Below, piece after piece: positions 1 through 63,658 of a stretch of DNA of 64,000 bases (its first letter is position 1; every line of letters starts with the position of its first letter). This stretch comes from an uncultured Myxococcales bacterium (GTDB lineage: Bacteria; Myxococcota_A; UBA9042), in assembly GCA_903955385.1 (NCBI GenBank), contig CAJBNH010000122.1, positions 1 to 64,000 on the forward strand, given 5' to 3'. The notes under the pieces were generated by a model. The model saw nothing but the letters and a program-made list of their open reading frames with translations. It was not told the origin of the DNA and did not search any database. The position numbers were made by a program, and so were the translations under genes.

Positions 1-1
1 G

Positions 2-184
2 GACGATCGGCCGCGCTTCGACGGCCCGCGTCCGCCGCGTCAGGACGATCGCCCCCGCTCCGACGGCCCGCGTCCGCCGCGTCAGGACGATCGCCCCCGC
101 TCCGACGGCCCGCGTCCGCCGCGTCAGGACGATCGCCCGCGTTTCGACGGCCCGCGTCCGCCGCGTCAGGACGATCGCCCGCGG
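2..184 (+). repeat. 42-bp in-frame tandem repeat in the RlmB N-terminus
   Basis: Four full 42-base copies (starting at 2, 44, 86 and 128) and a 15-base partial copy are seen at the window edge. Each encodes the 14-residue unit DDRPRxDGPRPPRQ, where x is Phe or Ser. The array continues upstream out of view. Copies differ by only a few bases, so expansion or homogenisation looks recent. Confidence 0.95.
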
Positions 185-60902: not shown

Positions 60903-62288
60903 TCAAGTCGCCCGCGGGCGTCGGCGGCGCACGTCTTGCGGGTTGACTTGCAACAGCTCCGCGCGCTCACGCTGCACGATCTCCAAGTACGCCTCACTGG
61001 ACAGCAGGGGCTCGACGCGACCGGCCTCGACCTCGGCCTCCAGCCACGCCACCACCTGCCCCAGCCACGGCCCCGGTCCCAACCCGGTCGCCTGCATCAC
61101 GGTGTGTCCCAGACCCTTGGGCAGCGGGGGCACCTTGGCGTCCTCTTCGGCGATGCGGGGGATGCGGGCGTTGAGTTCCTCAGCCAGCGAGCGTACTTCG
61201 GCAATTCGCCAGGCGCGCTTGGTCGTGAAGTCGCTCTGCGAAAAGGCGATCACGTCCTGCAAATGCGGCCCCATGTCGCGGATCAGTCGACGCACCGCAC
61301 TGTCGGTCCAGTCTGTCGTATAGACGTTGGCGCGTGCGTGGTTGGCGATCACGTAGACCACGCGGTCGCGCAGCTCCGGGTCGAGGTGAAAGCGGCCCGC
61401 GACGCCCTCCATCAGCGACGCGCCCATCTCTTCATGCCGGAAGAAGTGGACCTTGCCCTGCTTGTTGACCGTACGCGTCCACACCTTGCCGGTGTCGTGC
61501 ATCAGTGCCGCCCAGCGCACAGCGGGACTGTACGGGCACTTCTCGATCACCTGCAGCGTGTGGTCCCAGATGTCCTTGTGGTGCACCGGGCAGCCCTTGT
61601 GGAAGTCGATCATCGCGACGACTTCGGGGACCATCAGTTGCAACACCATGGCTTCGTGCAGGAAACGCAGCCCAGTTCCGGCGAATTCGCCCAGCAGTAC
61701 GGTGCCAAAGCGCTCGCACCACAGGGCGCGATCCAGCGACAGCACGTTGCCGGCATCGCGCTGCGCCGCCCGCACCGCCTCGATCGGGGGTTTCAGGCCC
61801 GACTGCGCTGCCCAGACGGCAAGGTCCAGGATGTGCCGAGGGTTGCCTTGGACAAACTTCCGCAGGTCCGATCGTAGGCCCAGCCTTCCCTCGGCCGCAT
61901 CCGCAAGGCCGCCAGTGGAATCGACGATCTCGCCGCCCGCACCCACCGCGACCGCCCATGCCCGCACCGGCTCGGCCGCCAGATGTTGCAACAGCGCGTG
62001 CGCAAAAGGTTCTGTCTCGACGGTACGGAGTTGCATCGGCCAGTCTTGCGGCGTCTCAGGGCACTTTTGCGCGGGACCGCTGGCCAGAATCGTCCACGGC
62101 AGGCCCGTGGGCAGGGGCGTGCCGCTGGCCAGCGCGAGTGCTGCGGGACCGACGACGGCCACTTCGACCCCCCGCTCGCTTGCGGCGAGCAGCCAGGCCC
62201 TCAGGTCGTCAGGGGTCGCAGGGACTGGAGGCACGGGCAAACCTTTCGGTGTGGGACGCAGCACGGCGCGCGCGGTGTAGCGGTGCAT
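60903..62288 (-). CDS. HD-domain protein related to tRNA nucleotidyltransferase, catalytic head lost
   Basis: This 461-residue protein has the neck-and-HD layout of bacterial CCA-adding/poly(A) polymerases: NPRHILDLAVWAAQ in place of the DPxRILRAxRFA segment, then GLRFLHEAMVLQLMVPEV, and the HD domain DIWDHTLQVIEK, MHDTGKVW. The N-terminal head, however, has VVGPAALALASG where GGxVRDxLL is expected, and the DxD metal motif is missing. It thus cannot be a normal nucleotidyltransferase; the HD phosphohydrolase may still act. The ATG at 62288 is tentative because no ribosome site is seen. Confidence 0.72.
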   Translation of the reverse strand: MHRYTARAVLRPTPKGLPVPPVPATPDDLRAWLLAASERGVEVAVVGPAALALASGTPLPTGLPWTILASGPAQKCPETPQDWPMQLRTVETEPFAHALLQHLAAEPVRAWAVAVGAGGEIVDSTGGLADAAEGRLGLRSDLRKFVQGNPRHILDLAVWAAQSGLKPPIEAVRAAQRDAGNVLSLDRALWCERFGTVLLGEFAGTGLRFLHEAMVLQLMVPEVVAMIDFHKGCPVHHKDIWDHTLQVIEKCPYSPAVRWAALMHDTGKVWTRTVNKQGKVHFFRHEEMGASLMEGVAGRFHLDPELRDRVVYVIANHARANVYTTDWTDSAVRRLIRDMGPHLQDVIAFSQSDFTTKRAWRIAEVRSLAEELNARIPRIAEEDAKVPPLPKGLGHTVMQATGLGPGPWLGQVVAWLEAEVEAGRVEPLLSSEAYLEIVQRERAELLQVNPQDVRRRRPRAT

Positions 62289-62337
62289 CGGGGCGAGGTC
62301 AAGCCCGAACAAGGCAAAGCCCAGCCCGACACGTTCG

Positions 62338-62367
62338 TTGACACTTCTCGCGGCTGGGTGGTACCTA
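62338..62367 (+). promoter_or_regulatory. Promoter of the Ser-His-Gly repeat gene
   Basis: TTGACA (62338-62343) matches the -35 consensus. After 18 bases TACCTA (62362-62367) is a fair -10 box. The ATG lies 42 bases further down. Confidence 0.5.
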
Positions 62368-62379
62368 CCCTCAGTAGGT
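62363..62379. repeat. Inverted repeat overlapping the -10 box
   Basis: ACCTAC (62363-62368) and GTAGGT (62374-62379) are a perfect inverted repeat around a 5-base centre. It overlaps the predicted -10 box and start site, the right place for an operator. A leader RNA hairpin is the alternative reading. Confidence 0.5.
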
Positions 62380-62408
62380 TTCGGTTTCACACTGAGGCCG
62401 GGGGCAGG

Positions 62409-62717
62409 ATGAAGAAGGCGCTTCCCAAGCTCAATCGGACCGCCGCAGACTTCCTCTCGTCGGAAGAGGGCGCGATCAGCGACAAGCAGGAAGCCACGCT
62501 GGCTACGCTGGGCGACCTGTCAGGCCCTGAGCCCCTGTTCCCCGATGCCCAAGACATGCGCGCGGAGCACTGCAGCCACGGTTCACATGGCAGCCACGGT
62601 TCGCACGGCAGCCACGGCTCGCACGGCAGCCACGGCTCGCACGGCAGCCACGGTTCGCACGGCAGCCACGGCAGCCACGGTTCGCACGGCAGCCACGGTT
62701 CGCACGGCTCCTGGTAA
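62409..62717 (+). CDS. Small protein with 15 Ser-His-Gly repeats, candidate metal-binding or peptide precursor
   Basis: This 102-residue protein has no signal peptide. Residues 1-54 are a mixed, acidic leader-like part (MKKALPKLNRTAADFLSSEE, then GPEPLFPDAQD). Cys55 follows, then 15 uninterrupted Ser-His-Gly units and a terminal Ser-Trp. The tail has 15 His and could bind Ni, Zn or Cu. The layout is also like a modified-peptide precursor, and the repeat recalls His-Xaa-Ser (HxsA) proteins, which are matured by radical SAM partners; none is present in the window. GGGGGCAGG upstream gives a possible ribosome site. It converges with a sigma-factor gene, 21 bases apart. Confidence 0.8.
   Translation: MKKALPKLNRTAADFLSSEEGAISDKQEATLATLGDLSGPEPLFPDAQDMRAEHCSHGSHGSHGSHGSHGSHGSHGSHGSHGSHGSHGSHGSHGSHGSHGSW
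62574..62708 (+). repeat. Tandem repeat coding for (Ser-His-Gly)15
   Basis: The array is built of 9-base units that mostly alternate AGC CAC GGn and TCG CAC GGC, giving an 18-base higher-order period. One AGC-type unit is repeated without its partner near 62664-62681, breaking the alternation. Synonymous third-base differences exist, so selection on the peptide, not only slippage, is likely. Confidence 0.95.
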
Positions 62718-62738: not shown

Positions 62739-63329
62739 TCACGACGGCAGAATTGGTTCCGGCAGCACGGACAGCTGCCTGCGCAGGCGTTGGATCAGGT
62801 TGCGGTGCGCGCGCTGCAGCTGGTCCGTCGATGCCGTGCCCTGCGTCGCCAGCTGGTTCAGCGACAAGTCGGCGCCGTAGTGGCCGTTCAGCACCAGTCG
62901 CTCGGCGCTGCCAAGCTCCGGCAACACGGCCGCAATCGCCCGCCCCAGGTCCAGCCGGGTCGAGATCGTCACTTGCGGCGCCGCGCTTGCCAACACCAAG
63001 CCGTGGATATGGAAATCGCGGCGGGTGCGCCACTGTCGCGCCTCGCGGCGAACGGCGTCCAGTGCGCGGCCCCGCACCCGACCAAAGGCGTACGTCATCA
63101 GCGTCGGTCCGCGCGAGGCATCGAAGCGGCTGGCGCACTCGACCAGCGCCAGCAACGCTTCGCCCGTCGAGTCCTGACCGATGTGCCGAGCGAAGACCTC
63201 GCGCTGACTGATGCGCATCGAGACCTGCACGGCGCGGTCATCGATCGGCAGCGACCCGGGCCAAGTCCTTCCGGGCGCAGCGAATTCCTCGGAGCTCTGG
63301 GTGACGGGAAACGCGGCGGGCGTCGGCAT
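62739..63329 (-). CDS. Small sigma-70-family factor
   Basis: This 196-residue protein has a region 2-like segment (ALLALVECASRFDASRGPTL, then TYAFGRVRGRALDAVRREAR) and a C-terminal region 4-like helix-turn-helix (LGSAERLVLNGHYGADLSLN). Regions 1.1 and 3 are short or missing. It is closest in form to alternative sigma factors of the FliA/SigB type or phage-like relatives. The region 4 helix is divergent. The ATG at 63329 follows AGGAAGA. No anti-sigma factor lies next to it; its neighbours are the Ser-His-Gly gene and a divergent lipoprotein. Confidence 0.75.
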   Translation of the reverse strand: MPTPAAFPVTQSSEEFAAPGRTWPGSLPIDDRAVQVSMRISQREVFARHIGQDSTGEALLALVECASRFDASRGPTLMTYAFGRVRGRALDAVRREARQWRTRRDFHIHGLVLASAAPQVTISTRLDLGRAIAAVLPELGSAERLVLNGHYGADLSLNQLATQGTASTDQLQRAHRNLIQRLRRQLSVLPEPILPS

Positions 63330-63658
63330 GGTGTCTTCCTGACTTGGCGGAAAGGGTGGAAATTGGGATGGGCAGCGGCGCCGCGGGTCGATCGGCCCCG
63401 GCGTGCCCCGACCCTTGTGCAAGTCTGTGGCCGGAGCGCCGCGTAAAGCGTAAAGGTCAAGTGTTTCAGTTGATTAAGAAGCTGAATCGCAAGTATTGCT
63501 GCAACCCGACTGGGGTGTCGGTGCCCCGGCCTCGCGGCCCCACCCGGCATCGGCGCCAGTCCATGCGATTTCGTTGACGGCGCCGCAGTCGCGATTATCG
63601 TCACCTCGACTCCCCGCGGCCACATGGCCCTAGGTGTATCCAGCAAAGAGGGAACCCC
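63330..63658. other. Divergent intergenic region upstream of the sigma-factor gene
   Basis: This 329-base stretch has no supported gene. Bases 63450-63500 are AT-rich compared with the surroundings and contain TTGATT-18-TATTGC on the plus strand. The better plus-strand promoter is listed separately. No clear minus-strand promoter for the sigma gene was found. Confidence 0.55.
63574..63601 (+). promoter_or_regulatory. Promoter of the lipoprotein gene at 63659
   Basis: TTGACG (63574-63579), a 16-base spacer and TATCGT (63596-63601) lie 57 bases upstream of the ATG. Confidence 0.6.

Follow-up and report, generated by a model that had tools for sequence, protein, structure and literature searches.

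The repeat-bearing protein encoded at one end of the window (the whole stretch of 64,000 nucleotides that was analysed) appears to be the precursor of a modified peptide. By its sequence it is a member of the HxsA4-type precursor family, and we put at about 85% the probability that its leader is recognised and its 16 His-Xaa-Ser (HxS) units serve as substrate of an unlinked HxsB, a radical SAM/SPASM enzyme. The features referred to below are the following.

62409..62717, + strand: hxsA4-type gene, 102 aa (translation, NF038313 match, order-wide orthologues)
62409..62567, + strand: leader, residues 1-53, MKKALPKLNRTAADFLSSEEGAISDKQEATLATLGDLSGPEPLFPDAQDMRAE (homologue alignment)
62568..62711, + strand: core, His54-Cys55-Ser56 and 15 His-Gly-Ser, residues 54-101, predicted HxsB substrate (sequence)
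62712..62714, + strand: C-terminal Trp, kept in the family
62400..62408, + strand: G-rich stretch 5' of the ATG, likely ribosome-binding site (upstream comparison, 20 homologues)
62338..62343, + strand: TTGACA hexamer, without support as a promoter element
62363..62379, no strand: 6-bp inverted repeat ACCTAC-N5-GTAGGT, expected by chance

The gene encodes a probable precursor of HxsA4 type

Translation from the ATG at 62409 confirms exactly the protein of the preliminary description: 102 residues arranged as MKKALPKLNRTAADFLSSEEGAISDKQEATLATLGDLSGPEPLFPDAQDMRAEHC-(SHG)15-SW, in which Cys55 is followed by exactly 15 perfect SHG units (residues 56-100), Ser-Trp and a TAA stop. Read in the His-Xaa-Ser register, the tail consists of 16 HxS units (one HCS and 15 HGS) and a C-terminal Trp, so that the lone Cys becomes the middle residue of unit 1. 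Relatives have Met (L205, L208), Gly (L191) or Phe (L190) in its place, and the flanking His and Ser are kept. The codons of the SHG units are mixed (Ser AGC 8, TCG 6, TCA 1; Gly GGC 10, GGT 5; His CAT 1), so a recent duplication of DNA does not account for the perfect repeat in the protein. A separate tandem repeat, with a 42-bp unit in 4.4 copies and 95% matches, occupies the very start of the window (1-183).

The whole protein matches the NCBIfam model of HxsA4 (NF038313) with 86.9 bits against a curated cut-off of 55, bearing out the likeness to His-Xaa-Ser proteins that had been noticed before. The repeats alone score 66.2 bits and the leader alone 16.1 bits (E 0.016). A shuffled tail gave zero matches to any Hxs family, and the HxsA4 match is not due to composition alone. 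The tail has the His/Ser periodicity with a free middle residue that characterises His-Xaa-Ser proteins, its own unit 1 being His-Cys-Ser, while the cut-off of the HxsA model TIGR03979 (121.65) is not reached by this protein. With HxsA4 of NCBIfam it shares the full-length match, the leader, the SHG repeats and the terminal SW/QW; its family differs in that the hydrophobic stretch after SEEG is missing and in that hxsA4 does not adjoin hxsB. Weak HxsA4 matches elsewhere in the genome (contigs C72, C16 and C33) were set aside, being far under the cut-off and in longer frames.

A controlled promoter had also been proposed for this gene, with TTGACA as -35 box and an inverted repeat over the -10 box. 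At spacings of 15-19 from TTGACA the best match to a -10 box is 2/6, a promoter scan returned none, and hairpins are at chance level (1 observed, 1.2 expected). Perfect 6-bp inverted repeats of the ACCTAC-N5-GTAGGT kind occur about 2 times per kb in the window, and neither element recurs in the upstream regions of 20 other family copies that were compared. By the same tests, regulation of the gene by a special promoter is unsupported. GGGGA or a similar sequence stands at the ribosome-binding position in the homologues (20 upstream sequences).

HxsA4 and HxsB are inherited together

Survey of the order to which the genome belongs shows HxsA4 in 22/22 genomes, the gene being split by contig ends in two, and HxsB in 21/22, the HxsB-less genome being 58% complete. 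HxsD_rel was over its cut-off, once per genome, in all 21 order genomes searched. hxsA4 is single throughout the order, apart from G002, which has two copies in tandem, and G008, which has additional weaker matches. The pair (L133, G002:C103, 2349-3350) has 15 and 18 units, and its leaders differ; another tandem pair of HxS precursors, at L191 (9126-10502), has 58 SHG units in one member. Across the class (52 genomes), 44 carry both genes, and HxsB never occurs without HxsA4; HxsA4 clearly stands alone in two genomes, which are 58% and 68% complete.

Likewise, among 239 genomes sampled from the phylum, each at least 90% complete, both genes occur in 80, HxsA4 only in 1, HxsB only in 5 and neither in 153. 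The sole HxsA4-only genome has its match under the cut-off, and one of the five HxsB-only genomes, G021, has HxsA4 split by contig ends. Fisher's test on these counts, which are raw and ignore phylogeny, gives 3e-56 with shared ancestry left out of account. Radical SAM genes were sought beside the homologues, as the preliminary description had advised, and of the 80 phylum genomes carrying both genes, 40 were found to have hxsB adjoining hxsA4 at a distance of 1 kb or less. Together with the HxsA4 score, the conserved leader and an HxsB in 80/81 genomes that have HxsA4, this strongly supports the suggestion that the product is a modified peptide.

In a scan of named genomes, HxS precursors also stand beside HxsB in Elusimicrobia, Omnitrophota, deltaproteobacterial and two archaeal metagenome-assembled genomes; the archaeal records, L174 and L193 (Woesearchaeota and another archaeon), hold HxsB and His-Xaa-Ser precursors. 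Most named relatives of the window's own family bear the label uncultured Myxococcales or Deltaproteobacteria. Two records titled Klebsiella pneumoniae (MAG) (L156, L169) contain this Myxococcota-type gene and its surroundings, and their titles look wrong.

Radical SAM partners lie on two other contigs

The preliminary description held that the radical SAM partners of the His-Xaa-Ser system were absent from the window. This is correct but not the whole picture: the genes lie outside the window, on contigs C16 and C193, and were missed for that reason. HxsB (TIGR03978) is encoded at C16:28118-29521 with 520.7 bits against a cut-off of 370, and is the sole HxsB over cut-off in the genome. Its CxxxCxxC motif is intact (CNHTCQYC), and the HxsB of a relative matches the Pfam SPASM domain too. 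The nearest solved relatives by sequence are radical SAM enzymes that include anaerobic sulfatase maturase (5wgg, 8vpo, 9gm3, 4k36). Among maturase models the best scores are to enzymes of thioether or other chemistry (QhpD 112, nif11 112 and PapB 107 bits), and cyclophane-forming models score 41-56 bits, below their cut-offs of 310-450. Adjoining hxsB is a gene for a further radical SAM protein (L020, G000:C16, 12388-13599), whose best NCBIfam match is PhpK with 24.6 bits; it is common only to this genome, G001 and G002.

The start of C193 carries a pair of radical SAM genes akin to HxsC4/HxsC, together with an HxsD-like gene and HxsD_rel (L030, G000:C193, 692-5096), and lacks the hxsB that comes next in other members of the family. 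HxsD_rel (NF038315) reaches 71.2 bits, over its cut-off of 41, whereas HxsD (TIGR03976) stays at 39.9-41.8 bits against 50. For HxsC (TIGR03977) the best score in the genome is 101.7 bits against 267.9, the two C193 proteins having 90 and 76.6, and for HxsC4 these two have at most 110 bits against 500. Compared with radical SAM proteins encoded in the linked operon of G047, they show identities of 49.5% (307 aa) and 34% (547 aa). The predicted structures of HxsD and HxsD_rel are small alpha/beta proteins, for which a PDB fold search returned no confident match and which display no sign of a winged-helix recognition domain. HxsD has a faint likeness to Rpb11/RpoL-type subunits (E 3e-3, with a TM-score under 0.5 when normalised to HxsD).

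The precursor and HxsB are not in one cluster in this genome; they are on different contigs, away from contig ends, with hxsB 28 kb into the 35.7 kb of C16. The related family f2 arranges its genes as hxsD, hxsD_rel, hxsB, hxsA4 and radical SAM. Family f10 (G047) keeps this core arrangement inside a longer cluster, in which hxsA4 has hxsB on one side and two more radical SAM genes on the other; six radical SAM genes are present in total. In linked relatives as many as five radical SAM genes accompany HxsB. An operon at L140 (173-10414) has hxsB and hxsA4, six radical SAM genes and a gene for a protein of 208 aa whose start, MRRRDFIGG, is twin-arginine-like. The operon of the window's own family comprises radical SAM genes, hxsD, hxsD_rel and hxsB, with hxsA4 located elsewhere, and linkage of hxsA4 to hxsB occurs nowhere in that family. 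The genome under study lacks the operon hxsB as well; its hxsD_rel is followed by a gene whose relatives in G009 and G019 come after hxsB. Judged by this gene order, the absence of hxsB from C193 looks like a clean loss of the operon copy. The C16 hxsB groups with a second hxsB clade, a paralogue present in several family members.

Beside hxsA4 itself, on the minus strand, are a sigma-70-like gene (62739-63422) and a tRNA nucleotidyltransferase-like/HD gene (60903-62390, below cut-off), both of which hold their position in several family genomes. The conserved neighbours of hxsA4 in the family, namely these two, an L,D-transpeptidase and a Ser/Thr kinase, were rejected as candidate pathway genes, since they look like ordinary synteny.

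The sole HxsB kept in this genome, the second paralogue, might have another substrate. The radical SAM proteins of C193 could then be the ones that process a true HxsA4 precursor, with the C16 HxsB and its neighbouring radical SAM protein forming a second pathway. The clade of this HxsB, the restriction of its neighbour to three genomes, and the fact that C193 is the orthologue of the family operon minus hxsB all fit such a division. It is nonetheless unlikely in our judgement, for at least one HxsB is found in every own-family genome except one 58% complete assembly, and the C16 copy is the only HxsB that this genome has. Furthermore, no other HxS substrate was found among the matches in the genome, and the search for a second His-periodic small ORF near own-family hxsB loci yielded none.

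The leader is conserved and the repeat peptide is under selection

Search of the leader among homologues, which the preliminary description had called for, shows by alignment that all 22 genomes of the order share a conserved N-terminus, with the motif LPxxxxxxxDFLxSEEGxI, also written LPKLKKxxADFLSxEEGxIS... That it is leader-like and without signal peptide was thus rightly seen: the N-terminus is not hydrophobic (best 15-residue hydropathy 0.44). Several related families have a hydrophobic, signal-like stretch after the SEEG motif, e.g. SEEGKITRRQAAKISTFLLIAGTGSGQALAAD, which has been lost in the window's own family. From these sequences we infer that the product is exported in relatives with the stretch, and that the product studied here may be cytoplasmic or differently exported.

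In 21 own-family copies SHG is the sole unit type (310/310 units), and 18 of the 21 have exactly 15 units. Codon-by-codon comparison of these 18 copies counted 0 nonsynonymous against 2,403 synonymous differences, a result of selection and not of repeat drift; the SHG peptide is under strong purifying selection. In relatives the His and Ser of the triplet are constant and the middle Gly is replaced by Ser, Ala, Thr, Val, Asn or Asp. Most complete relatives finish with SW or QW, and the window's own family conserves the Trp.

A different account of so many histidines is that the protein remains unmodified and binds metal (Zn, Ni, Cu) directly, or buffers, HxsB being irrelevant to it. Sixteen evenly spaced His and one Cys would suit such a role, there is a weak ZrgA match (10.9 bits, cut-off 27.4), and a protein that has no signal peptide could be a cytoplasmic store. 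Metal binding needs no Ser as invariant as the His, and it leaves aside both the fixed number of units and the near-constant company of HxsB, a member of a peptide-maturase family; we therefore give this account little credence.

Still less probable is a collagen-like Gly-X-Y protein. The tail scores 34.5 bits with Pfam PF01391, over the gathering threshold of 27.2, and has collagen-like and phage tail-fibre PHROG matches; these follow Gly periodicity, which explains them, the repeat is without Pro, and the invariant Gly at every third residue fails in relatives, which swap Gly and keep His and Ser, the reverse of collagen. Functionless low-complexity drift, which the tandem repeat detected in the hxsA4 DNA (TRF) and a range of 5-58 HxS units across phyla might have suggested, is refuted by the codon test and has practically no chance left, given the orthologues in the whole order, the conserved leader and the 15 units in most of the family. 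The preliminary description had itself named an unconserved leader, varied tails and no conserved neighbours as marks of drift; leader and tail contradict this, and the partner genes are conserved though unlinked in the family.

A proposed modification in trans

Under the reading of an HxsA4-type precursor modified by HxsB, the conserved N-terminus would act as a recognition leader that recruits HxsB and perhaps the C193 proteins. HxsB from C16 would modify the HxS units, probably together with the products of the second unlinked locus on C193, namely its radical SAM, HxsD-like and HxsD_rel proteins, so that the enzymes would act on HxsA4 in trans. Against this it must be set that the HxsA4 score comes mostly from the repeats and that hxsA4 is unlinked to hxsB throughout its own family.

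Which bond would be made can be approached by analogy with the triceptides, the products of XncB, OscB, MscB, HaaB and YhhB, whose three-residue cyclophanes include C2(His)-Cbeta(Ala) and C4(Phe)-Cbeta(Ser) bonds (review, PMC11002830). Shared with them are a three-residue motif as target of a SPASM radical SAM enzyme and a geometry of His-Gly-Ser that the known bonds would fit. Given modification, the most economical guess from these bonds is one between the His ring and the beta-carbon of the Ser two residues on, in each unit, as three-residue cyclophanes; it is a guess more doubtful than probable. It is weakened by the scores of HxsB, which is not close to the cyclophane enzymes and matches QhpD, nif11 and PapB better. 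A thioether at every unit is impossible because there is a single Cys, and epimerised or oxidised Ser may be the product instead. A cross-linked product would carry its modified imidazoles as an array along a strand rich in Gly and Ser; that such an array binds metal or surfaces is speculation.

Discussion

The system that Haft and Basu, reference 10 of PMC9062424, are said to have described, HxsABCD (TIGR03976-TIGR03979), shares with the present one an HxsB well over cut-off, an HxS repeat precursor, HxsD-like and HxsD_rel proteins and several radical SAM genes. It differs in that here the HxsA (TIGR03979), HxsC and HxsD cut-offs are not reached and the genes are spread over three contigs. 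HxsB was reportedly named years ago from sequence alone. Published work on the chemistry of HxsB or the biochemistry of HxS or Ser-His-Gly peptides was not found in the searchable literature. TvgA/TvgB, which make poly-cyclopropylglycine (PMC9062424), offer a parallel in that a single radical SAM enzyme modifies every unit of a short-repeat precursor; they differ in the TVGG repeat and the Val chemistry, and homology is not indicated by the evidence here.

What is already known is thus the family name of HxsA4 and HxsB, a kind biochemically unexplored. New here are the strict unit number and the selection on the peptide within one order; to these, comparison of genomes adds that precursor and enzymes can apparently be scattered yet co-inherited, that linked relatives have multi-radical-SAM operons, and that the genome of the window has seemingly lost the operon hxsB. 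Since precursor and enzyme can be unlinked yet stay together in genomes, searches confined to the gene neighbourhood would miss half of such systems. With identical units in fixed number and a core that has one Cys and no Lys, the peptide is an unusually clean substrate for the study of HxsB. Somewhat doubtfully, we imagine a lineage-wide, essential-looking peptide of 16 HxS units, modified in trans by radical SAM enzymes into a polymer of cross-linked or altered histidines unlike known natural products. Universal retention in one order suggests that the product has a basic cellular role and is not an occasional antibiotic.
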